From: Prochlorococcus sp. AG-363-M17 | GTDB lineage: Bacteria > Cyanobacteriota > Cyanobacteriia > PCC-6307 > Cyanobiaceae | DNA: 49,785 nucleotides | Assembly: GCA_003278365.1 (NCBI GenBank) | Contig: QCFS01000010.1 | Span: 1 to 49,785 of the forward strand | Reading direction: 5' to 3' | Part shown: one piece after another, positions 9,198-48,570 of the stretch | Position numbering within the stretch: position 1 is the first letter of the stretch | How the letters are laid out: each line of letters begins with the position of its first letter | Made by a program: the position numbers and the translations under genes | Notes under the pieces: model-generated | What the model was told of the DNA's origin: nothing | The model's input: the letters and a program-made list of their open reading frames with translations, nothing else | Database searches by the model: none

Positions 9198-11102
9198 ATG
9201 TGCGGAATCGTTGCAGTTATAGGTTCTCGAGAAGCAGCTCCTCTGCTTCTTGAAGGATTGAAACAGTTGGAATACCGAGGGTATGACTCCGCTGGTTTAG
9301 CCACGGTTGCATCTTCTTTAGGAGATTCCAAAGGTGTTATGACATGTCAAAGAGCTGCAGGGAAACTGGTAAACCTTTCAGCATTGGTCGAGGAGAAAGG
9401 TGCTGCAGGGAATTTAGGTATTGGCCATACCAGATGGGCTACACATGGCAAACCTGAGGAACGCAATGCACATCCTCACAGAGATCAATCTGCCGAAATT
9501 GCGGTTGTACAAAATGGAATTATTGAAAATTATCGGCTTCTAAAAGAGGAACTTCAGCGGGAGGGTGTCAGTTTTGTCTCAGATACAGACACTGAAGTTA
9601 TTCCCCATCTAATTGCAAAAGAAGTTCATGAGATGAAGTTGGGAGGCCGTAATGACAGTGGTGCAATGTTGTTGGCTGCTGTTCAGAAAGTTTCTGCTCG
9701 ATTAGCTGGTGCATATGCGCTTGCAGTTGTTTGGTCAAGAATTCCAGATGCTTTGGTAGTTGCTAGAAGACAGGCACCATTATTGATTGGCTTAGGTGAA
9801 GGCGAGTTTCTTTGTGCAAGTGATACTCCAGCTTTAGCTGGATTCACTAGGACTATTTTGCCTATGGAAGATGGAGAAGTGGCATTGTTAACTCCTCTTG
9901 GAATTGAGTTATACGATTCACAAGGGAATAGAAAGCAAAGAAGTCCTGAGTTATTGAGCGGAATTGATCATTTGGCCGATAAACGTAATTTTCGTCATTA
10001 CATGTTGAAGGAAATCCATGAACAGCCTGAGACTGCAGAACTATGGGTATCTAGACATCTTCCTGCAGATCTTTCAGCAAGGACACCTGTTGCCTTCCCT
10101 TTTGAGGACTCTTTTTATCAAGGAATAGATAGGGTTCAGATTCTTGCTTGTGGTACAAGCCGTCATGCAGCTCTAGTCGGTGCACACCTCCTTGAGCAGT
10201 TTGCAGGAATTCCCACTTCTGTTTTTTATGCAAGTGAATTTCGTTATGCACCACCACCACTTGTTCCACATACCTTGACCATTGGTGTTACACAGTCAGG
10301 TGAGACTGCTGACACACTTGCAGCTCTTTTAATGGAAGCCAATCGGCGTGATGCCCATGTTGACAAAGCCTATGCTCCGCGATTGCTTGGAATAACTAAT
10401 AGATCGGAAAGTTCTATAGCTAGGCAAGTGCCAAATATTCTTGATATTGGAGCTGGAATTGAGATAGGAGTTGCTGCAACTAAGACATTTCTTGGCCAAC
10501 TTCTTTCTTTTTATGGCCTTGCCTTAATGTTTGCTGCTCGCAGGCGCAGTAGGTCTGATGAAGAAATTATGCAACTTAGTTGTGAATTAAGGGCGGTGCC
10601 TAATCAACTGAGATTGTTAGTTAAAAAGCATGATCGACTCTCAGAGGAGCTTGCTCCAAGATTTGCAGAAACCCAAGATGTCATTTTTTTAGGTCGAGGT
10701 ATTAATTATCCAATTGCACTTGAAGGGGCACTCAAGCTGAAGGAAATTAGTTATATACATGCAGAAGGATATCCTGCTGGTGAGATGAAGCATGGACCTA
10801 TTGCCTTGCTTGACCCTCGTGTTCCAGTTATATCAATTGCAACCCCAGGAAAAGTATTTGACAAGGTTTTAAGCAACGCTCAAGAAGCTAAAGCGAGAGA
10901 TGCGCAGCTTTTTGGTGTTGCCCCAGAAGGACCTGATACAGAGATCTTTGATGCATTACTTCCATTGCCTGAAGTAAGTGAATGGATTAGTCCGTTGTTT
11001 TCTGTTGTTCCTATGCAATTATTGAGCTACCACATTGCTGCACATAGAGGATTAGATGTTGATCAGCCGAGAAACTTGGCGAAGAGTGTAACAGTGGAAT
11101 AG
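9198..11102 (+). CDS. glmS: Glutamine--fructose-6-phosphate aminotransferase (isomerizing)
   Basis: A 634-residue enzyme making glucosamine 6-phosphate, the first step to UDP-GlcNAc for peptidoglycan and lipopolysaccharide. Cys2 (MCGIVAVIG), exposed by Met removal, is the glutaminase nucleophile; GHTRWATHG and the NGIIENY block complete that domain. Two SIS sugar-isomerase domains follow (CGTSRHA and TQSGETADT near 320-370; FLGRG and EGALKLKEISY near 500-530), ending in the conserved LAKSVTVE tail. No Shine-Dalgarno sequence is visible because the psaC terminator fills that site. It ends at 11102, directly against the end of the opposing manC-like gene. Confidence 0.98.
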   Translation: MCGIVAVIGSREAAPLLLEGLKQLEYRGYDSAGLATVASSLGDSKGVMTCQRAAGKLVNLSALVEEKGAAGNLGIGHTRWATHGKPEERNAHPHRDQSAEIAVVQNGIIENYRLLKEELQREGVSFVSDTDTEVIPHLIAKEVHEMKLGGRNDSGAMLLAAVQKVSARLAGAYALAVVWSRIPDALVVARRQAPLLIGLGEGEFLCASDTPALAGFTRTILPMEDGEVALLTPLGIELYDSQGNRKQRSPELLSGIDHLADKRNFRHYMLKEIHEQPETAELWVSRHLPADLSARTPVAFPFEDSFYQGIDRVQILACGTSRHAALVGAHLLEQFAGIPTSVFYASEFRYAPPPLVPHTLTIGVTQSGETADTLAALLMEANRRDAHVDKAYAPRLLGITNRSESSIARQVPNILDIGAGIEIGVAATKTFLGQLLSFYGLALMFAARRRSRSDEEIMQLSCELRAVPNQLRLLVKKHDRLSEELAPRFAETQDVIFLGRGINYPIALEGALKLKEISYIHAEGYPAGEMKHGPIALLDPRVPVISIATPGKVFDKVLSNAQEAKARDAQLFGVAPEGPDTEIFDALLPLPEVSEWISPLFSVVPMQLLSYHIAAHRGLDVDQPRNLAKSVTVE

Positions 11103-25142: not shown

Positions 25143-26567
25143 CTAAAATCTTTCAATTACCGCTTTTGCAAAACCACTGCAGCTTAACGGATCGACTGGT
25201 GGTTCCATGAGTCGAGCTAAGTCGTAGGTAACTTGCTTATGTTCAATTGATTCACTAATACCTTTAGTTATTAGATCTGCGGCTTCTTGCCAACCTAGGA
25301 ATTCAAGCATCATTACCCCACTTAGAATTACAGACCCTGGATTAATGCGATCAAGACCAGCATGTTTTGGAGCAGTTCCATGTGTAGCCTCAAAAATAGC
25401 TGCTTTATCGCCAATATTTGCCCCTGGAGCCATTCCAAGACCTCCAACTATTGCAGCTGCCGCGTCTGAGATGTAATCACCATTTAAGTTAAGGGTGGCA
25501 AGAATAGAGTATTCCTGAGGTCTAGTTTGAATTTGTTGAAAGATACTGTCAGCAATACGGTCATCAACCAAAACCATTTCTCGCCATTTATTTTTTCCAT
25601 GACTATTGCCGATTGTTTTTATTACATTCATTACCTCTAAACATATTGACTCTTTCTTTTCTGGGGTCAGTGAATCAAATCCTGGTTCTATCATTCTTGC
25701 ATTCTCTTCGTACTCTAAATTTGGATTTTTATCAGCATTTTCAAGAATCCAACTTTCTCTTTCTGTAACACAAACCTCACGGAATTCACTATTTACCAAT
25801 TCATAACCCCAGTCTCGGAAGGCACCCTCAGTAAATTTCATGATATTTCCTTTATGGACAAGTGTGACATGCCTTTTGTCTCCTTCAAGTTTTAAAGCAT
25901 GTTGAATAGCTTTACGAATATGTCTTTGACTACCTTTTTTACTAACTGGTTTAATTCCTATTCCAGAATTTTCTGGAATTTTTCGTTGACCTAACTTTCC
26001 ATTGGCAGGTATCACTTTTGTGTTTAAGTGATGTCTTAGTTGCTCACCTATTTTGTCTGAGTTTTCCCATTCAATTCCCATATATATATCTTCTGTGTTT
26101 TCTCTGTACACAATTACATCAAGGTCTTCAGGCCTTTTGTGAGGGCTTGGAGTTCCTTTGTAATACCTGCATGGACGTACGCAAGAATAAAGATCAAAGG
26201 TTTGCCTTAGAGCTACATTTAATGAGCGAATCCCTCCTCCTACAGGTGTTGTTAAAGGCCCTTTAATTGCTATTCCATAGGTTTCTATTGCTTTTAGAGT
26301 ATCTGCTGGAAGATATTCGTATGTTCCATATAGTTCGCATGCCTCGTCCCCTGCATAAATTTTGAACCATTCTATTAACCGTTTTACTCCATAGGCTTTT
26401 TTTATTGCGGCATCAATGACCATTTGGGTTGCTGGCCAAATATCCACACCTGTTCCATCACCTCTGATAAATGGGATAATTGGATTGTCAGGAACTAAAG
26501 GTTGTCCATTTACAAAGCTAATAGCTTCGCCCTTTGATGGAGCTGTGATTTTCTCGAATTGAGTCAT
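25143..26567 (-). CDS. icd: Isocitrate dehydrogenase (NADP+)
   Basis: A 474-residue enzyme producing 2-oxoglutarate, the carbon skeleton for ammonium assimilation. Substrate-site residues are visible in the region after [15 protein letters not shown] near 155, with SLNVALRQ and the RPCRYYKG segment near 130; [14 protein letters not shown] near 370 and the [17 protein letters not shown] block near 400 complete the family pattern. Length matches the usual cyanobacterial enzyme, longer than the E. coli form. 2-oxoglutarate also serves as the nitrogen-status signal in cyanobacteria. Confidence 0.98.
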
Positions 26568-26702: not shown

Positions 26703-27680
26703 ATGATTAAGACCTCTTTGGATCACTCAGGTATCACCGCTCAGGTTTGGGTGGTAGCAGCTTGTTTTAACGAAGCTGTAGTGATAACCCAATTTATTGA
26801 AAGAGTTATTGCAGTACCTGAAGTATCTCGATTAGTGCTGGTAGATGATGGGTCTAGTGACTCCACAGTTTCTGAGATTCTTTCTTGGCAAGAACATAAT
26901 TCAGTGGGTGAAGATCGAGTTGAGGTTGTTTTGATTGAGTTGACACGTAATTTTGGCAAAGAGGCAGCAATGCTTGCAGGAATGGACTATGCAAAAGGTA
27001 AGTGTGATGTAGTTGTTTTGATTGATTCTGATCTGCAACATCCACCTGAGTTGATTTCTGGAATGGTTTCTTCCTGGAGAGATGGTGCTGAGATCGTATC
27101 TGCTGTAAGGGATAGTCGCGATCAAGAGTCGCTATTGAAAGTGGCGACTGCCTCATGGTTTTACAAGGTTTTTAATAACGTTGTTGACTCCATACAGCTC
27201 CAAGAAGGCGCTGGTGATTACCGATTGCTCAGCGCCCCGGTAGTGGAAGCATTAACCACAATGAGGGAATCTGGACGTTTTTCTAAAGGTTTGGTTCCGT
27301 GGACTGGTTATAAAAGTGTTGATATCAGCTATAGAAGAGTAACTAGACTTGGCGGTATTAGTTCTTGGAGTCCTTATAAATTATGGAGCTATGCACTTGA
27401 TGGGATATTTTCTTTTTCAGTTTTGCCTCTGAGGATTTGGAGTTTTCTGGGCTTAACAGTCTCCATAATTAGTCTATTCTATGCAATTTTGATAATTTTT
27501 AGGACGTTAATTAATGGCATTGATGTCCCAGGATATGCCTCATTAATTGTTGCCATTTTATTCTTAGGAGGGGTCCAGCTGATTGGTATTGGTGTGCTTG
27601 GTGATTATATTGGAAGAATTTATGTTGATGCGAAAGCAAGACCTCATTATTTTGTAAGGTCTATTCATCAGGATAGATGA
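26703..27680 (+). CDS. Family 2 glycosyltransferase, GtrB/dolichol-phosphate-mannose-synthase-like
   Basis: A 325-residue membrane-bound glycosyltransferase. The GT-A catalytic domain (about 14-230) has VVAACFNEA near 17, VDDGSSDST (47-55) and the metal-binding DSDLQHPPE with D108/D110. Two C-terminal transmembrane helices (about 237-262 and 275-297) match enzymes that transfer a sugar from a nucleotide donor to undecaprenyl phosphate. Its 3' end overlaps the opposing GtrA-YdjC fusion gene by 20 bases, and the pairing suggests a shared lipid-linked-sugar pathway. Donor sugar is unknown. Confidence 0.9.
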   Translation: MIKTSLDHSGITAQVWVVAACFNEAVVITQFIERVIAVPEVSRLVLVDDGSSDSTVSEILSWQEHNSVGEDRVEVVLIELTRNFGKEAAMLAGMDYAKGKCDVVVLIDSDLQHPPELISGMVSSWRDGAEIVSAVRDSRDQESLLKVATASWFYKVFNNVVDSIQLQEGAGDYRLLSAPVVEALTTMRESGRFSKGLVPWTGYKSVDISYRRVTRLGGISSWSPYKLWSYALDGIFSFSVLPLRIWSFLGLTVSIISLFYAILIIFRTLINGIDVPGYASLIVAILFLGGVQLIGIGVLGDYIGRIYVDAKARPHYFVRSIHQDR

Positions 27681-28968
27681 TCTTAGTGTTTTTTGATTTG
27701 AATCTTCTTAAGGCATCTAATTCGATTTTTCGCCATTTTGAAGAAAAAAATCTTTTTGATAAAGGAAATCTTGATAATCTAAAAATCTCTTCTCTTATTA
27801 TTTGGTCTGACGGATGGCTTAAAATTAGAGACTGAGTTTCTCCTGGCTTAATCTTAAGAATTTGTAGCTCTTTAAAACCAAGTCTTAAGGGCTCTTCGCT
27901 CATATTTCCAGTAAATAATATCCCAGAAAACCCCGCATTTGTGCGAATCTTCGCCTTTGAAATTTTTGGCTTGGCGATTATTGTAAGCCATTGAAGTATA
28001 AACCATTTTATCAACCCACCATTGAAAAAGATTTTTCGCCAGTAATGCCAACTCAAACCGGTTGGGAGCGGCTCATAAGTGGTACGAATCCAAGTGATTT
28101 CTTTTGCTTCGGATAACTTTATTAGAATGTCTAAAACTATTGGTATTAAATGGATATGCTGATGACCATCTATACAGATTTGATTAATTGATGTAAGAAA
28201 TTTAAATTGATTAATTTGGGAATTAATTTCTTGGTATAAAGCATCTTCATAGCGTTTCCGAATTCCTAAAACCCTGGGAATAAATGATAATATCAGTAAT
28301 TTTGTAAAGCTTACTTTAAGACTTCCTTGACCATTCGTTAAACCTTTCGTATCTGAATTAGATGCTAATGCTGGCCCTTCTGTGAGGCAAAGGTGTAATA
28401 CAAGCTCTATTGACTTATTCTCTTTCCATAGTTGAATAGCTTCGTTTACTGCAGTTCCATTGACCAATAAGCTTGCACTCGCTATTTTCCCTTCTTTTGC
28501 AAGGGATATGATTGCATTATTGGTTGAAGATGTGAGGCCTAGGTCATCTGCATGAAGAATTGGTGGGTATTTTAATAAATGGTTTCTTCTTAAGCTAAAT
28601 TTTGCAGCAAAGTTCCATATTAATGCATTTACTAATGTTGGAGTGAGTATGAAAATTAATGCACTAAAACCAAGCATTTTGATGGAGGAAAATAACAAGG
28701 GTAATAGTGATGCAAGTATGATATTTGTTGAAAATTGTAAGATTAACCATCGACGTGCAAACCTTTTCCCATTAGTTTCTCTTCGAAATGTGTAAATTGC
28801 ATGACCTAGGTAACTAATTAATGATGCAACTAGGAATCCACTGAGATTGCTTATCCAAAGTGGAAAAGATTTGCTAAGTATTAATAAAACCAAAGCATGC
28901 ACAACTGCAGCCATTCCACCTATCAAGCAGTACCGAAAAACTTTTTTGCTTTTTTTAAGAATGCTCAT
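27661..28968 (-). CDS. GtrA-like flippase fused to a YdjC/ChbG-like deacetylase
   Basis: A 435-residue fusion. Residues about 8-128 form four transmembrane helices with the GtrA pattern (FRYCLIGGMAAVVHALV; YTFRRE), a family linked to polyprenyl-phosphate-sugar translocation. Residues about 136-430 are a YdjC-type carbohydrate deacetylase: HADDLG (H139, D141, D142), HLCLTEG near 192, and DGHQHIH (D267, H269, H271, H273), giving a full metal site. Both halves look intact. Overlap with the GT2 gene supports a joint role: attach a sugar to lipid, deacetylate it, flip it. Confidence 0.88.
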   Translation of the reverse strand: MSILKKSKKVFRYCLIGGMAAVVHALVLLILSKSFPLWISNLSGFLVASLISYLGHAIYTFRRETNGKRFARRWLILQFSTNIILASLLPLLFSSIKMLGFSALIFILTPTLVNALIWNFAAKFSLRRNHLLKYPPILHADDLGLTSSTNNAIISLAKEGKIASASLLVNGTAVNEAIQLWKENKSIELVLHLCLTEGPALASNSDTKGLTNGQGSLKVSFTKLLILSFIPRVLGIRKRYEDALYQEINSQINQFKFLTSINQICIDGHQHIHLIPIVLDILIKLSEAKEITWIRTTYEPLPTGLSWHYWRKIFFNGGLIKWFILQWLTIIAKPKISKAKIRTNAGFSGILFTGNMSEEPLRLGFKELQILKIKPGETQSLILSHPSDQIIREEIFRLSRFPLSKRFFSSKWRKIELDALRRFKSKNTKIIYPDE

Positions 28969-32047: not shown

Positions 32048-32527
32048 ATGACTATAAAAGTTTTATTCGTTTGCTTGGGTAATATTTGTAGGTCTCCAGC
32101 TGCAGAAGGTGTTTTCCTTTCTCTTCTTAAGAGTAAGGGCCTTGAAGGTCAATTTTTTGTTGATTCCGCTGGGACTGGTGGATGGCATATAGGGAGTACT
32201 CCAGACAAGAGAATGCAGCAAGCCGCTAATAGAAGGGGAATCAAACTTCCTAGCTTGGCACGTCAAATCACTGAGAAGGATTTAGATGATTTCGACCTTA
32301 TTCTGACTATGGACGACGAGAATTATGATTCTGTTCAAACACTTGCCAAAAGATCTAAATTAAAGGTTAGTGCAAATATTAGAAAGATGCTTAGTTATTC
32401 TAGGTTTTCGGATCTAGCCGAAGTCCCTGACCCATATTATGGAGGTGATCAAGGTTTTGAAGATGTTTTAGACCTTTTAGAAGATTCTTGTGAAGGGTTA
32501 TTAGCATCCCTTGATGTCACAAACTAG
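32048..32527 (+). CDS. Low-molecular-weight protein-tyrosine-phosphatase
   Basis: A 159-residue phosphatase. The P-loop CX5R is Cys9 to Arg15 in VCLGNICRSPAAEG, and the general-acid Asp is in PDPYYGG near residue 127. Such enzymes often control tyrosine kinases of surface-polysaccharide export, but arsenate reductase-like members share the fold. No kinase lies nearby. Its 3' end overlaps the end of the opposing panC-cmk gene by 11 bases. Confidence 0.93.
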   Translation: MTIKVLFVCLGNICRSPAAEGVFLSLLKSKGLEGQFFVDSAGTGGWHIGSTPDKRMQQAANRRGIKLPSLARQITEKDLDDFDLILTMDDENYDSVQTLAKRSKLKVSANIRKMLSYSRFSDLAEVPDPYYGGDQGFEDVLDLLEDSCEGLLASLDVTN

Positions 32528-34061
32528 GCCAAACTTCTTGAGGCACTTTTGCTTGAAAAACTTCAATTATAGAGTCTTCAACTTCTTTTATAGTCATACC
32601 ATCTGTCACTATTTCTATTGCATCCTCCGCTTTAACTAATGGTGATATTTCTCTTGTCCTGTCTAATCGATCTCTCTCTTCTATTTGCATTCTAATTGTA
32701 TCTAAGGATTCACCACCAAAACCTCTAGCCTCTATGTCTTGTGCTCTTCTTTTTGCACGCTCCTCAACGCTTGCTGTTAAAAAAACTTTTAATTCAGCCT
32801 TAGGGAATACAATGCTGCCTATGTCTCGACCTTCAGCAATTAATCCACCATTTTCTCCCATTTGTTTTTGCTGGTTAGTTAATGCTTCCCTAACGCAATG
32901 GTATGAGGAAATTGTGGAAACTATTTTTGAAATATCCTGAGTCCGTATTGCATTTGTTACATCAGAACCATTAACCATTACTTTTTGATCCCCTGATGGA
33001 GTGATGCTCAGCTCCAGCCTAAGTTCTTTAATAGCTTTTTTAATTTCTGATTCATTATGCGGGTCAATATTGTTTTGTTGAATCATCCATGTAACCCCTC
33101 TATACATTGCTCCAGTATCTAGATAAATCAGACCAAGTCTTTTGGCAACATTTTTTGTTACGGTACTTTTCCCGGCTCCAGCTGGACCATCAATTGCAAC
33201 GATTGGCTTCCGAGTCATTAGAAAAATGTGATCAATTAGGCGTGTCTTACCAGACCTTACAGCTGTAGCCAGCAGGCATAGCTTATTGCCTAGTTTGGTT
33301 GGTTCAAGTGTGTATGGATCAATTGCTTCTAAATATTCAACCTCTAATCCTTTGGCTTGTAATTCATACCTTAGTTGAGGAAGATCAATATTTTTTTTGA
33401 TCTTATATAAGACTCCTGTTTGTTTGAGTAGTTTTGGGACTTCTTGATAATCCTTCCTCTGGTTTGGACTTAGGTATGTATTCCTCGAGCTCCAAGCTAT
33501 ATCATCATGATCTCGTTGAGTAGGGACAGCCTGGATTCGAACTGGAATTGCTAAGTCAGTTAAAAGTTGCCTCAAGATGACTAATTGTTGCCAGTCTTTC
33601 TCACCAAGTACTAATACTTCAGGGCGAACTAGGCTCAGTAACCTTGCAACGACGGTAACTACTCCATCAAAATGTCCTGGACGATTAATCCCACAAAGAC
33701 GGTTTTGCAAGTTGGGTGGAGCAAGAATCTTAAAATTTTTAGCATTACCACCGGGGAAAATATCTTCAACTGAAGGTGCCCAAATTGCATTTGCCCCTGA
33801 TATTTTTGCCAGTTCACAATCTTTGTTTAGGCTGCGAGGATATTTGTCAAAATCTTCTGACGGTCCAAATTGCAGTGGGTTTACAAAAACACTTGTTAAC
33901 ACTTTTAAAGGATTCTGCAATTCCAGTCTTCTTGCAGCCTTGATAAGTGCGCAATGTCCCTCATGAAGAGCACCCATGGTGGGTACAAAGTGGACATCAC
34001 ATTGTTGTGCTTTTCGCCAACAACGTAACTCATCATTTGTGCGTAGGACGGAAAAACTCAG
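32517..34061 (-). CDS. panC/cmk: Bifunctional pantoate--beta-alanine ligase / (d)CMP kinase
   Basis: A PanC-Cmk fusion as known in cyanobacteria. The PanC half has PTMGALHEGH and the KDWQQLVILRQL segment; the Cmk half begins AIDGPAGAGKST, a Walker A. Pantothenate synthesis and CMP phosphorylation are joined in one chain. The first ATG (33977) would cut the essential strand before MGALHEGH. Upstream, the frame stays open and family-like (RCWRKAQQCDVHFVPT) back to a TGA at 34073-34071, and the only near-start codon is CTG at 34061-34059, preceded by GAGG seven bases away. I therefore use CTG, giving about 514 residues. Confidence 0.85.
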   Translation of the reverse strand: MSFSVLRTNDELRCWRKAQQCDVHFVPTMGALHEGHCALIKAARRLELQNPLKVLTSVFVNPLQFGPSEDFDKYPRSLNKDCELAKISGANAIWAPSVEDIFPGGNAKNFKILAPPNLQNRLCGINRPGHFDGVVTVVARLLSLVRPEVLVLGEKDWQQLVILRQLLTDLAIPVRIQAVPTQRDHDDIAWSSRNTYLSPNQRKDYQEVPKLLKQTGVLYKIKKNIDLPQLRYELQAKGLEVEYLEAIDPYTLEPTKLGNKLCLLATAVRSGKTRLIDHIFLMTRKPIVAIDGPAGAGKSTVTKNVAKRLGLIYLDTGAMYRGVTWMIQQNNIDPHNESEIKKAIKELRLELSITPSGDQKVMVNGSDVTNAIRTQDISKIVSTISSYHCVREALTNQQKQMGENGGLIAEGRDIGSIVFPKAELKVFLTASVEERAKRRAQDIEARGFGGESLDTIRMQIEERDRLDRTREISPLVKAEDAIEIVTDGMTIKEVEDSIIEVFQAKVPQEVWPSL

Positions 34062-39480: not shown

Positions 39481-39673
39481 TGGAAATTTGTTGGTTGAAT
39501 TTTCTTGATTCTCTTTTTGTTTTATTCCATCCCTGTCTTAATAGGGGGAATTCTTGGGATAATGGAAAAAGTAATTTTTCATAGCGGTTTACCTAACATT
39601 CACTTATCGCACTGAATGAGGAAGAGAGACCTAATAATTGAAATCCTGCAGCTGATGTGCAGGAAAAAGAAAA

Positions 39674-39744
39674 AGGCGGCACCCAGATTCGAACTGGGGA
39701 TAAAGGATTTGCAATCCTCTGCCTTACCACTTGGCCATGCCGCC
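39674..39744 (-). tRNA. trnC-GCA: tRNA-Cys (anticodon GCA)
   Basis: A 71-base cloverleaf on the minus strand. Acceptor GGCGGCA (39744-39738) pairs with TGCCGCC (39681-39675); the discriminator is T (U73), typical of tRNA-Cys. The anticodon arm AGGAT-TTGCAAA-ATCCT shows GCA, and the T arm has GTTCGAATC. CCA is not encoded. An A-rich plus strand, thus T-rich on this strand, at 39660-39674 follows the 3' end and may terminate it. Confidence 0.97.
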
Positions 39745-39763
39745 ATAGAGGAGGATGAACTCC

Positions 39764-41016
39764 ATGCAGCGGATCGTATCAGTCAAGGGATCAAAGCACT
39801 ATTAGTTGTCTCGAATGGCCATGGAGAAGATTTGATATCACTTCGCATTTTGGAATCCCTGCATCAGCTTCATCCAGAGTTGCCATTAGAAGTTTTACCT
39901 TTGGTGGGTGACGGCAAAACCTTTGCAAAAGCTATTTCTTCAGGCTGGTTAAGGAAGATAGGCCCTACCGCGACTATGCCTAGTGGAGGTTTCAGTAATC
40001 AGAGTTTGAAAGGGCTTTGGGCTGATTTATTGGCTGGATTAATTTTTTTGTTTTTTAGGCAATGGAGCTCTATTCGACTTGCTTCTCAAGAAGGTAGGTC
40101 GATTTTGGCAGTAGGTGATCTTTTGCCGCTTTTCATGGCTTGGGGCAGCGGATCGTTCTTCGGCTTTATTGGAACACCTAAAAGTGATTACACCTGGCGC
40201 AGTTTTGCTAATCAAGCTTTTAGCGATTATTACCATCGCCTTAAAGGTAGTGAATGGGATCCATGGGAATGGATGTTAATGAGCTCTTCTCGTTGCAAAA
40301 TGGTTGCTGTTAGAGACACTTTGACTGCTCGAGGACTTAAGAGGCATGGAGTGCTTGCGAATGCTCCAGGCAATCCAATGATGGATGGCTTACGAAAGGA
40401 AACTTGTCCTCCTTCATTGAATGGTTATCGTCGAATTCTTTTGCTCTGTGGCAGTCGTACTCCAGAAGCTTTAAATAATTTCGTGAGACTGTTGAATTGT
40501 TTAGAAGAATTAGAGACTAATGAACCTATTGCTGTATTAGTAGCACTTGGTTCTTCTCCATCTCCCAATCGGCTTACTGAAACTCTTATCAATAAACATT
40601 ACTTAGCTATCTCCTCTCCATTTTATGACTTGAAGATGCATTCTTGTTGGCAAAAGAATTCACAGTCAGTTTTGTTAGGCCCTGGTCAATTTTTCAGTTG
40701 GGCAGGTTTAGCGGAAGTCGGACTTACTACTGCTGGAACTGCTACTGAACAATTAGTGGGATTAGGTATTCCAGCTATTTCTTATCCAGGACAAGGACCT
40801 CAATTTAAAAAAGGATTTGCTCTTCGTCAGAGTAGAATGTTGGATGGTTCAGTAAGGCCTTTTTTTGATCCTATGACTATTGCGGATCAATTGAAATTAC
40901 TTTTAGAAGATAGTCAACTCCGTCAATCATTGGGATCAAGAGGTGTAAATCGTATGGGGCGCCCAGGAGCCAGTCACCGATTAGCAGAGCTTGTATCGAG
41001 GTTGCTTTTGCGATAG
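39764..41016 (+). CDS. Lipid-A-disaccharide synthase-related protein, apparent frameshift at the 5' end
   Basis: The main frame encodes about 410 residues from ALLVVSNGHGEDL to the end, matching the LpxB-related GT-B glycosyltransferases of cyanobacteria (SNGHGED; PGNPMMDG; TTAGTATEQLVGLGIPAISYPGQGPQF). Read unshifted, the frame runs back through the antisense of tRNA-Cys, and no ATG, GTG or TTG lies between the tRNA and the conserved core. An AGGAGG (39749-39754) sits nine bases before an ATG at 39764 in the +1 frame. One extra A in the AAA at 39793-39795 would join that ATG to the core as MQRIVSVKGSKALLVVSNGHGED. So a one-base deletion, slippage or sequencing error is likely. Function is not established. 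Confidence 0.8.
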
Positions 41017-45916: not shown

Positions 45917-47194
45917 ATGGCGAGTTTGTTTTCTAGAAGGTCTAAGGCAAATGCTTTCCGGCCAGTTGCGAAAGGTAGTCAAAAAATTAACCCTAATTTG
46001 GTTTTATGGTTAGTCCCTTTTTTCCTGGTCTTTCTTTCTGGCTTATTGATTGCGAGCACTCAGCGTAATTCCAGTTTGGCTGATTGGTATCAACATTGGA
46101 TTACTGCAGGGATTGGAATGTTATTTGCTTTGGGATTAGCTAAATTATCTGTTGAGCGTTTGAAGCCTTTATTATTACCTATCTATTTGATAACAGTTCT
46201 AAGCCTTTTTGCAGTCAGATGGATAGGTGTTTCTGCGTTAGGTTCGCAACGCTGGTTAAATATTGGGGGGCTAAATTTTCAACCTTCAGAATTAGCTAAG
46301 CTTTCCGCTATCCTTTTATTAGCGGCTGTATTAGAACGTTATCCTATTCGAAGACCTATTGATTTATTAAGGCCATTAGGTGTAATTGCTTTGCCTTGGG
46401 CACTTGTTTTCTTTCAACCTGATTTAGGAACTTCACTAGTATTTGGGGCGTTGTTAATAACAATGCTTTATTGGTCTGGAATGCCTCTTGAATGGGTAAC
46501 ACTTATTTTTTCTGGATTAATTACAGCTAGCTTGTCAGGATTAGCACCTGGCCTACTTATCATTTGGATACCATTCATAGGTTTTGTTGCATATCGCTCA
46601 TTACCTTTGCGATGGAGATCTGCTTTGTTCACGCTTATTTTCCAAGTAATGATAGCGTTGTCCACACCTTGGATTTGGATGAATGGATTGAAGGCCTACC
46701 AAAGAGATAGGTTGGTTCTTTTTTTAGATCCATCTAAGGATCCCCTAGGAGGTGGTTATCATTTACTTCAAAGTACGGTTGGGATTGGTTCAGGAGGCTT
46801 ATTTGGTGCAGGGTTATTACAGGGCCAATTAACGAAGTTGAGATTTATTCCTGAACAACATACTGATTTTATTTTTAGCGCTGTTGGAGAAGAAACTGGC
46901 TTTGTGGGCTCATTATTAGTTGTTTTCGCCTTTGCAATATTTATTTTTCAACTTTTAAAAGTTGCTAGAAAAGCTCGCACTGATTTTGAGTCTTTAGTAG
47001 TTGTTGGTATAGGGACAATGTTGATGTTTCAAGTTGTAGTAAATATCTTTATGACTATTGGGCTTGGTCCTGTGACTGGTATTCCGCTCCCATTTATGAG
47101 TTATGGAAGATCAGCTTTGATGGTCAACTTTGTAGCGCTTGGGCTATGCATCTCAGTCGCTCGCCGAGCTTCATATGTTCCTGAAAAATTGTGA
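45917..47194 (+). CDS. rodA: Rod shape-determining protein RodA (SEDS family)
   Basis: A 425-residue integral membrane protein with about ten transmembrane helices and the SEDS signatures FQPSELAKLSAILLLAAVLE near residue 115 in parts, FQPDLGTSLVFGALL near 170, and the C-terminal GLGPVTGIPLPFMSYG near 385. RodA polymerises glycan strands with a class B PBP to build the cell wall. It starts three bases after mrp, and its TGA overlaps the GTG of the next gene. Confidence 0.95.
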   Translation: MASLFSRRSKANAFRPVAKGSQKINPNLVLWLVPFFLVFLSGLLIASTQRNSSLADWYQHWITAGIGMLFALGLAKLSVERLKPLLLPIYLITVLSLFAVRWIGVSALGSQRWLNIGGLNFQPSELAKLSAILLLAAVLERYPIRRPIDLLRPLGVIALPWALVFFQPDLGTSLVFGALLITMLYWSGMPLEWVTLIFSGLITASLSGLAPGLLIIWIPFIGFVAYRSLPLRWRSALFTLIFQVMIALSTPWIWMNGLKAYQRDRLVLFLDPSKDPLGGGYHLLQSTVGIGSGGLFGAGLLQGQLTKLRFIPEQHTDFIFSAVGEETGFVGSLLVVFAFAIFIFQLLKVARKARTDFESLVVVGIGTMLMFQVVVNIFMTIGLGPVTGIPLPFMSYGRSALMVNFVALGLCISVARRASYVPEKL

Positions 47195-48570
47195 CTTATA
47201 AATATAGCCTTAAAGGTATTCAACAGCGAATGGCCCAAGATCTTTTGCCTGGTAAGGGTAATGAGGTAACTGTTAGACGCCTATGGTGGGCTGCTTTAGA
47301 GACTCTTCAAGATGATATTTTGCTGCCTATGAATCTTTCTCAAGGTTTGTGGATAGCGGCCCCTCTTCCAGCACTATATGAACCGCGACTACTTAATCGA
47401 CTTCAAGGCTGGGTATGGGCACCTGAAGAATTAAACAGTTTATATACACCTCAAAGTAGTTTTTTGCTTCCTAGTCGAACTAGAGCTTATGCACAAAAAG
47501 CAATTGTTCCTGGAAATGAACATTTTAGGCGAATACCTTTGAGAAAAAAGGATGGTAGAGATCCATTACTAATAATCATTACTCCGGAGATTCAGGTTGC
47601 TCTTGGGTTACATGGAAACGATGGATCACGTCAATTAGTTATGCGAAGTGATCCCGAGACTATTGCTGATCTGTTGATGATTTTGGATGCAAGAATCAAG
47701 GATGAAGTTAATGTTGAGGCGATTGAGCTAGGAAAGGCGTTAGAGGGTTTAGGACAAATAGAAAGTAACCAAGGCATTGAAAAGCTTTTTTGGCCCCGAT
47801 TAGCAGAACGACTTGCGGTAATGGCGCCCAGTGTGCATTTGCAGGCAATGCCAGACAAAGAGATCAAATCGGATTCCACTACAAATTTAACTTCTGAACT
47901 TTCGCTTCTTGAGGCCTTGACTCATGAAGTTAGAACTCCACTGGCGACAATACGCACATTGATTCGCTCTTTATTAAGACGTGATGATCTATCTGATCTT
48001 GTAGAGAGCCGTTTAAAACATATTGATAACGAGTGCACAGAACAGATTGATCGATTTGGGTTGATTTTTAATGCTGCGGAGTTGCAGCGCCAGCCTAAAG
48101 AAACTTCAAGGCTTGCAAAAACAGATTTAGGCGCAATGTTGAAATTAATGTATCCAGTGATTTGTTCTCAGCTTGAGAGAAGGGGTGTACAACTCCTTAT
48201 GGATATAGCTTCCGATCTGCCAGAGGTTCTCAGTGATCCAGAACGCCTTGAGTTGATGTTAGGAGGACTTGTAGACCGAACTGGCAGGGGATTGCCATCA
48301 GGGGGAAGCTTGACTCTTAAGCTTCGACCTGCAGGTAATCGATTAAAACTTCAAATTTTGAGTGAAATTCCAAACTCTCAATTACAAGGGATTGAGAGTC
48401 AGGAGCAAAATGCCGAGCTTGGACCCGTGCTTAGTTGGAACCCTAATACTGGAAGTTTGCAATTAACTAAGGCTGCTACGCAAAGGCTCTTGGCTAGCCT
48501 GGGAGGGCGTTTAGCGGATAGACGTGATAGTGGATTAACTGTCTTTTTCCCAGTAGCAGAAGTAAATTAA
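47191..48570 (+). CDS. Histidine-kinase-like protein with degenerate ATPase domain
   Basis: A 459-residue soluble protein starting with GTG (47191), overlapping the rodA stop. Residues 1-230 are an unrecognised N-terminal domain with no membrane segment. The dimerization domain has an intact H-box, THEVRTPLATIR with H245. The ATP-binding part (about 305-455) keeps DPERLELML (349-357), but its N-box is GGLVDRTGRG (Asn absent) and no DxGxG G1 box is seen, only LSEIPNSQ. It may therefore be a pseudokinase that binds partners. Position after mrp and rodA suggests a link with cell wall growth. Confidence 0.8.
   Translation: MTYKYSLKGIQQRMAQDLLPGKGNEVTVRRLWWAALETLQDDILLPMNLSQGLWIAAPLPALYEPRLLNRLQGWVWAPEELNSLYTPQSSFLLPSRTRAYAQKAIVPGNEHFRRIPLRKKDGRDPLLIIITPEIQVALGLHGNDGSRQLVMRSDPETIADLLMILDARIKDEVNVEAIELGKALEGLGQIESNQGIEKLFWPRLAERLAVMAPSVHLQAMPDKEIKSDSTTNLTSELSLLEALTHEVRTPLATIRTLIRSLLRRDDLSDLVESRLKHIDNECTEQIDRFGLIFNAAELQRQPKETSRLAKTDLGAMLKLMYPVICSQLERRGVQLLMDIASDLPEVLSDPERLELMLGGLVDRTGRGLPSGGSLTLKLRPAGNRLKLQILSEIPNSQLQGIESQEQNAELGPVLSWNPNTGSLQLTKAATQRLLASLGGRLADRRDSGLTVFFPVAEVN

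Follow-up and report, generated by a model that had tools for sequence, protein, structure and literature searches.

What do two genes make together when they face each other tail to tail and one encodes a sugar transferase, the other a GtrA-type membrane domain joined to a deacetylase? This arrangement is found in a 49,785-nucleotide stretch of Prochlorococcus sp. AG-363-M17 (contig QCFS01000010.1, positions 1 to 49,785), referred to here as the window. The genes at 26703-28968 encode a family 2 glycosyltransferase (GT2) and a fusion of GtrA-type and YdjC-type domains. Judged from sequence, they probably form a conserved two-gene module of marine picocyanobacteria that places a sugar on a carrier lipid, removes an acetyl group and exports the amino sugar. 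The parts of the pair are:

26703-27680, forward strand: GT2, a GtrB-type polyprenyl-phosphate glycosyltransferase of 325 amino acids, with a GT-A domain followed by C-terminal membrane helices
27024-27041, forward strand: DxD metal motif D108-S-D110-L-Q-H113 of the GT2, from the GT2 alignment
27661-28968, reverse strand: GtrA-YdjC fusion, 435 amino acids in a single open frame, with two Pfam domains
28606-28935, reverse strand: GtrA/DPMS membrane domain, residues 12-121 (PF04138, 39.9 bits, cut-off 26.1)
27706-28560, reverse strand: YdjC deacetylase domain, residues 137-421 (PF04794, 131.7 bits, cut-off 29.7)
28543-28548, reverse strand: codons of D141 (catalytic base) and D142 (metal ligand), from the sequence and the ChbG alignment
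28393-28395, reverse strand: codon of metal ligand H192, from the ChbG alignment
28162-28164, reverse strand: codon of metal ligand H269 in the motif DGHQHIH, from the ChbG alignment
27814-27816, reverse strand: codon of the catalytic acid H385, from the ChbG alignment
27661-27680: 20-bp overlap of the convergent 3' ends (in 13 relatives, the spacing ranges from -46 to +9 bp, as overlap or gap)

Both proteins have intact active sites

A first, sequence-only reading of this locus had likened the GT2 to enzymes that put a sugar on undecaprenyl phosphate. The likeness is borne out by a Pfam match to PF00535 (E 7.6e-24) and by the nearest solved structure, GtrB sll0501 of Synechocystis (E 4.7e-83, 44% identity), with ArnC second at about 2e-35. 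Synechocystis GtrB makes undecaprenyl-phosphate-glucose from uridine diphosphate (UDP)-glucose (PMC4728340), and mutating D157, R122, R200, K132, Y140 or R290 inactivates it. GtrB residues D94, D96, R122, K132, Y140, D157, R200 and R290 align with D108, D110, R136, K146, Y154, D172, R215 and R305 of the GT2, so that the lipid-phosphate arginines of GtrB (R122 and R200) are kept as R136 and R215. Eight of nine GtrB positions compared, the DxD included, are invariant across all 14 GT2s aligned; only R139, the equivalent of GtrB R125, varies. By these residues, the GT2 counts as a polyprenyl-phosphate enzyme with its active site intact. Against the ArnC equivalog profile PRK10714 it scores 141.5 bits, below the cut-off of 529, and was therefore rejected as an ArnC equivalog. 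In a tree with long branches and, in places, moderate support, as also holds for our YdjC tree, it groups, with support 86/87, with cyanobacterial GtrBs (sll0501 and loci L039-L041) and an additional GT2 from Francisella, and apart from the main body of proteobacterial partner GT2s.

The fusion was likewise predicted to carry an intact metal site, and it does: both domains score above their cut-offs, and D142, H192 and H269 are in place. The active site of the deacetylase ChbG consists of the metal ligands D11, H61 and H125, the catalytic residues D10 and H206, and R223 (PMC9402603). In the alignment, ChbG D10, D11, H61, H125, H206 and R223 correspond to D141, D142, H192, H269, H385 and R413 of the fusion. 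The sequence-only reading had named a lack of intact ligands in relatives as a finding that would count against it. Instead, all six counterparts are kept in 36 of 36 aligned fusion proteins, which diverge to about 37% identity yet retain these residues. The fusion is a genuine protein under selection. It is no assembly artefact, being present in 46 of the 201 genomes in our survey of the picocyanobacterial family.

An AlphaFold model of the fusion (mean predicted local distance difference test score, pLDDT, 90.3; predicted template modelling score 0.83) shows four long helices, at residues 3-31, 37-64, 72-92 and 99-127, and then a barrel. The barrel superimposes on ChbG (7vi8) with a VIA-align Z of 24.4 and a root-mean-square deviation of 2.7 over 243 residues. 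Net charges of +2.9, +3.8 and +4.1 fall on the N-terminus of the GtrA domain, the loop that joins helices 2 and 3 and the stretch that follows helix 4, while the other two loops are near zero (+0.6 and -0.1). This pattern marks the charged segments as the inner ones and places both ends of the GtrA domain in the cytosol, so YdjC is predicted to lie on the cytosolic side. In the YdjC tree, the fusions stand as a separate clade (100/99), and a 100/100 branch separates them from the NaxD/Lgm-type clade. The hopanoid-associated deacetylase HpnK was rejected as an equivalog, since the fusion scores 100.5 bits against the HpnK profile TIGR03473 (NCBIfam), for which the cut-off is 232.6.

GT2 and fusion occur as a pair

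A first sample yielded 14 genomes, that of the window among them, in which the fusion is complete or almost complete. Fusions were also found in 21 picocyanobacterial GenBank loci from Prochlorococcus, Synechococcus, Cyanobium and Vulcanococcus. Among the 46 survey genomes with the fusion, one (G206) retains just the GtrA piece, and stops interrupt a few others. GT2 orthologues show 55-76% identity and stand apart by a clear gap from the next GT2s, at 48% and below. A search for fusions and their GT2 neighbours, as the sequence-only reading had proposed, found both genes in 44 of the 201 genomes, the fusion alone in two and the GT2 alone in one. The Fisher p for this co-occurrence is 9e-41, which is no probability of chance because the genomes share ancestry. 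The pair is convergent in all 43 relatives carrying both genes, and this arrangement is kept across four settings: the slot beside icd, the RCC307 setting, and the Vulcanococcus and Cyanobium settings. The icd slot is conserved in most members. In the window it is flanked as follows:

25143-26567, reverse strand: icd, on one side of the pair
29067 onward, forward strand: a short conserved gene, then a heme oxygenase homologue, on the other side (names assigned by eye)

The exceptions to the pairing are informative. In G077 (L126:8589-10883), an intact fusion faces, again in convergent order, a GT2 that is not orthologous and has 31% identity to that of the window, so one partner has apparently been replaced. 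Both genes are decayed or gone from the slot in G023 and G036. The YdjC domain is missing in G153 (L128:8824-10210), where a stand-alone GtrA gene is convergent with the GT2, and broken in G143 (L130), where GT2 and GtrA are intact. In G206, the stand-alone GtrA lies beside a different GT2, with no YdjC. These cases suggest that GtrA goes with the GT2 and that YdjC can be lost later. We conclude that the GT2 and fusion genes belong together.

They do not belong together as an operon, which we rejected because the genes lie on opposite strands with overlapping 3' ends and cannot form one transcript. When the region was scanned for promoters and terminators, it yielded no more matches than shuffled sequence did. 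In one genus, a nucleosidase-type PNP_UDP_1 gene stands upstream of the fusion in the slot (L049:3799-4545 and L131:9360-10124); we considered it as a new component of the system and regard it as probably a bystander. Locus L131 holds a further gene of 254 amino acids, without a Pfam match, between the GT2 and the fusion. A phage or plasmid origin of the fusion was rejected, as 50,697 phage records and 72,556 plasmid records contain no full-length match. Viral contigs yielded only two matches to the fusion, both to YdjC only.

The same functions occur as separate genes in Proteobacteria

GT2, GtrA and YdjC occur as consecutive separate genes in Methylophilales (L104), Herminiimonas (L077) and another proteobacterium (L088). 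Many proteobacterial cassettes of these three genes also contain PMT_2 or ArnT-type genes. All four kinds of gene are found together in L106 and in loci L070, L084 and L097 of the Alcaligenaceae, the family to which Bordetella belongs. In an uncultured lake bacterium (L066:5980-7236, CAIOKC010000029.1), we found a fusion of reverse order, with YdjC at the N-terminus and GtrA at the C-terminus, that immediately follows a GT2 and a PMT_2 gene. Here the two functions have been joined independently. Together with the conserved active sites and the pairing of GT2 and fusion in 44 of 46 genomes, these cassettes uphold the earlier proposal that sugar transfer, deacetylation and translocation are combined at this locus.

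A donor-site residue gives a hint against glucose

The GT2 has a histidine, H113 (27039-27041), directly after DxDxQ, where the UDP-glucose enzymes sll0501 and P22 GtrB have an aspartate. We compared this position in about 90 GT2s, which are not independent of each other, so the counts are a correlation only. Where a YdjC gene lies within 4.5 kb, 79 of 81 GT2s have the histidine; of the other two, one has an aspartate and comes from a Francisella locus with two GT2s, of which it is the second, and the other is a truncated frame that cannot be read at this position. Without a nearby YdjC, seven of ten have the aspartate, among them sll0501 relatives and P22 GtrB, two come from genomes with a lost or broken YdjC, and one is close to the end of its contig. 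In G077, the replacement GT2 carries the histidine, and the GT2 beside the YdjC-less GtrA of G206 has the aspartate. H113 is thus a possible donor-specificity residue and a hint against glucose as the sugar. In addition, a product made from UDP-glucose would leave the deacetylase without a substrate.

As a separate observation, window positions 9198-11099 encode a protein that, like GlmS, combines a glutamine amidotransferase domain with two SIS domains; GlmS acts at the start of UDP-N-acetylglucosamine (UDP-GlcNAc) synthesis.

Candidate acceptor transferases

The sequence-only reading found no acceptor transferase in the window, and we agree: no PMT-type enzyme was found among the window open reading frames (ORFs) scanned with Pfam, and no acceptor transferase is linked to the pair in the icd slot. 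Outside that slot, GT-C candidates adjoin the pair in eight relatives. PMT_2 is directly upstream of the fusion on the same strand in L055, L056 and L129. DUF2079 overlaps the GT2 on its strand in L058 and is adjacent to the pair in L057, L061, L059 and L133. The window genome itself carries candidates on contig C4 (1958-11340, L035), where a PMT-like protein of 545 amino acids, a GT2-GtrA fusion of 370, a PMT_2 protein of 510 and three DUF2079 proteins are encoded in a row. In the first sample, the C4 PMT_2 is present in nine of 14 pair-bearing genomes and also in several pair-less ones. DUF2079 is present in 13 of the 14 and also in about ten pair-less family members, counts that are subject to gaps in metagenome-assembled genomes and uncontrolled for shared ancestry. 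As both families also occur in pair-less genomes, the C4 cluster is not established as a dedicated partner of the pair. A profile comparison of DUF2079 with PMT_2 gave a probability of only 35%, and the AlphaFold model of DUF2079 (pLDDT 41.7) was too poor for a structure search.

Proposed mechanism and alternatives

We consider it fairly likely that the GT2 makes an undecaprenyl-phosphate-N-acetylhexosamine, which YdjC deacetylates, GtrA exports and a GT-C transferase uses. In this scheme, the GT2 would work on the inner side of the membrane and transfer an N-acetylhexosamine, most simply GlcNAc from UDP-GlcNAc, to undecaprenyl phosphate. Held on that side by the GtrA helices, the YdjC domain would use a divalent metal ion to strip the acetyl group. 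The undecaprenyl-phosphate-hexosamine would then cross to the outer side through the action of GtrA, the other domain of this chain, and a GT-C transferase whose gene lies elsewhere may join the hexosamine to a surface glycan or lipid there. This proposal builds on the domains, the intact active sites, the co-occurrence, the convergent order, the charge pattern of the GtrA loops and the separate-gene cassettes. It draws further on the joint decay of the two genes, the replacement GT2 of G077, the L066 fusion, the GT-C candidates, the donor-site histidine and known precedents. From these we infer the identity of the sugar, the order of the steps, the flipping and the acceptor.

Several points weigh against this mechanism. 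The closest characterised relative of the GT2 uses UDP-glucose, which offers no substrate to a deacetylase (PMC4728340). YdjC is lost in G153 and broken in G143 while GT2 and GtrA are kept, so deacetylation is dispensable there. The missing acceptor transferase, both among the scanned window ORFs and beside the pair in the icd slot, is a third point. Flippase activity of GtrA is only putative even in model systems (PMC8035078), the convergent order does not guarantee co-regulation, and shared ancestry inflates the co-occurrence statistic.

The best surviving alternative, in our view improbable, is that GT2 and GtrA belong to an ordinary three-component exporter of undecaprenyl-phosphate-glucose or another neutral sugar, with YdjC acting on some other acetylated substrate and fused for tethering. 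The grouping of the GT2 with the UDP-glucose enzyme sll0501, at 44% identity, fits this, as do G153 and G143, where GT2 and GtrA have outlasted YdjC. However, the association of GT2 with YdjC is seen again in unrelated Proteobacteria and in an independent fusion of reverse order, the donor-site residue is the histidine rather than the aspartate of UDP-glucose GtrBs, and the GtrA that does sit beside an aspartate-type GT2, in G206, has no YdjC.

Slightly less probable again is that GtrA serves as an anchor or docking unit bringing the deacetylase to a tetrameric GT2, flipping being left to another protein such as the C4 GT2-GtrA fusion or a flippase from a different family. The name of the Pfam family, GtrA/DPMS TM, fits this, since the small subunits of DPMS assist a transferase; moreover, the window genome has a second GtrA domain (G000:C4:4381-4734). 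Against this, GtrA is retained with the GT2 after loss of YdjC in G153 and G143 and is a gene of its own beside GT2 and YdjC in Proteobacteria, which argues that it is not merely a tether for YdjC.

We think it very unlikely that the GT2 glycosylates phosphatidylglycerol or a hopanoid, with YdjC deacetylating and GtrA flipping the aminoglycolipid, so that no GT-C enzyme would be needed. Such a route has a parallel in GpgSDF, which makes glucosamine (GlcN)-phosphatidylglycerol with a transferase, a deacetylase and a predicted flippase (PMC12713373); HpnK is a YdjC protein whose profile gives 100.5 bits on the fusion, and the scanned window ORFs lack an acceptor transferase. Yet GpgS is a GT4 enzyme, the GpgSDF flippase belongs to the AglD2/YbhN family, the HpnK score is far under its cut-off, the GT2 retains the lipid-phosphate arginines R136 and R215, and GT-C candidates adjoin the pair in eight relatives. 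That the two genes are unrelated neighbours sharing a slot by icd is hardly credible: their convergence, the absence of a shared transcript and the conservation of the slot in most members would allow it, but the pair stands together in at least three other settings (RCC307 type, Vulcanococcus and Cyanobium) and shows joint decay and GT2 replacement.

Within the proposed export of an undecaprenyl-phosphate-hexosamine, we tentatively suggest that the single chain couples the steps. With YdjC at the inner mouth of GtrA, only the deacetylated, cationic undecaprenyl-phosphate-hexosamine might be exported, feeding a cationic surface decoration in picocyanobacteria.

Comparison with known systems

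The closest parallels are the NaxD and Lgm pathways. NaxD, of the YdjC superfamily, deacetylates undecaprenyl-phosphate-N-acetylgalactosamine in Francisella, and the Francisella/Acinetobacter pathway, which also includes an ArnT-like transferase, resembles the scheme proposed for our pair in combining a polyprenyl-phosphate transferase with a YdjC deacetylase acting on undecaprenyl-phosphate-N-acetylhexosamine (PMC11279074). The loci that we retrieved from Francisella hold YdjC, GT2 and an ArnT-like gene together, as separate genes. They differ from the pair in that no GtrA was detected beside YdjC in the three Francisella loci, and in our trees the fusion YdjC and the pair GT2 fall outside the NaxD-type clades. 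The acceptor would differ as well. Marine Synechococcus lipopolysaccharide (LPS) is reported to lack lipid A phosphate and to have some glucosamine and galacturonic acid (PMC4515613); with a host LPS of this kind, a lipid A phosphate could not be the acceptor, which should then differ from that of the NaxD and Lgm pathways.

In Bordetella, the lgm locus (lgmA-D) serves to decorate lipid A phosphates with GlcN, and lgmA-C are needed for GlcN on lipid A (PMC4993483, PMC11895810). The related Alcaligenaceae loci L070, L084, L097 and, in part, L085, which we take as counterparts of lgmA-D by kinship and not by direct comparison, hold GT2, PMT_2, GtrA and YdjC. These are four separate genes as opposed to two, with deacetylase and flippase unfused and with GT2 and YdjC of other clades. 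Since its YdjC and GT2 lie outside the clades of both pathways, the pair was probably assembled independently and, as the sequences suggest, probably works like them without being a member of either.

Other systems share parts of this logic. In GtrA-GtrB-GtrC and GtcA-CsbB-YfhO, a GT-A enzyme makes an undecaprenyl-phosphate (C55-P)-sugar and works with a GtrA-type protein, a putative flippase of GT-A/GtrA/GT-C systems (PMC8035078; P22 gtrABC). In contrast to the pair, no deacetylase is listed for these three-component systems, and sll0501 and P22 GtrB carry the aspartate after DxDxQ. Viewed as part of such a multi-component glycosylation set, the pair supplies the GT-A and GtrA members by family, and GT-C candidates lie beside the pairs of relatives or unlinked in the window genome. 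The sequence-only reading had drawn the parallel with ArnC, ArnD and ArnE/F. What stands is the order of events, from sugar onto undecaprenyl phosphate through acyl removal to flipping. The protein families do not match, as the GT2 is only distantly related to ArnC, YdjC is not a CE4-type deacetylase like ArnD and GtrA is not EmrE-like as ArnE/F are; the likeness is an analogy only, and NaxD/Lgm is closer. GpgSDF of P. aeruginosa also leads from a transferase through a deacetylase and a predicted flippase to an amino-sugar lipid (PMC12713373), but with a GT4 transferase, a COG3233 deacetylase and a YbhN-type flippase, all separate.

In the literature searched, no paper mentions both GtrA and YdjC, and none was found that describes the two in one protein. 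The name "gtrA" is also used elsewhere for a TRAP glutamate transporter gene. What appears new is the union of translocator and deacetylase in one chain, its picocyanobacterial setting and its apparent independent origin.

Other reading frames in the window

32517-33977, reverse strand: one frame of 486 amino acids, by eye a pantothenate synthetase-like part joined to a cytidylate kinase-like part
39616-41016: long frame of 466 amino acids, no Pfam match at 1e-5
47191-48570: long frame of 459 amino acids, no Pfam match at 1e-5

Implications

If the proposed mechanism is true, DUF2079 gains a candidate role as an acceptor transferase. The fusion makes two questions testable in one polypeptide: whether GtrA is a flippase, and at which point of the sequence of steps, and on which face of the membrane, deacetylation takes place. 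Prochlorococcus and Synechococcus would have a route to free surface amino sugars that is undescribed in the literature searched, and these sugars would therefore bring positive charge to the cell surface. This matters for the most abundant phototrophs, as the sugars they display influence the attachment of phages, grazing and adhesion.

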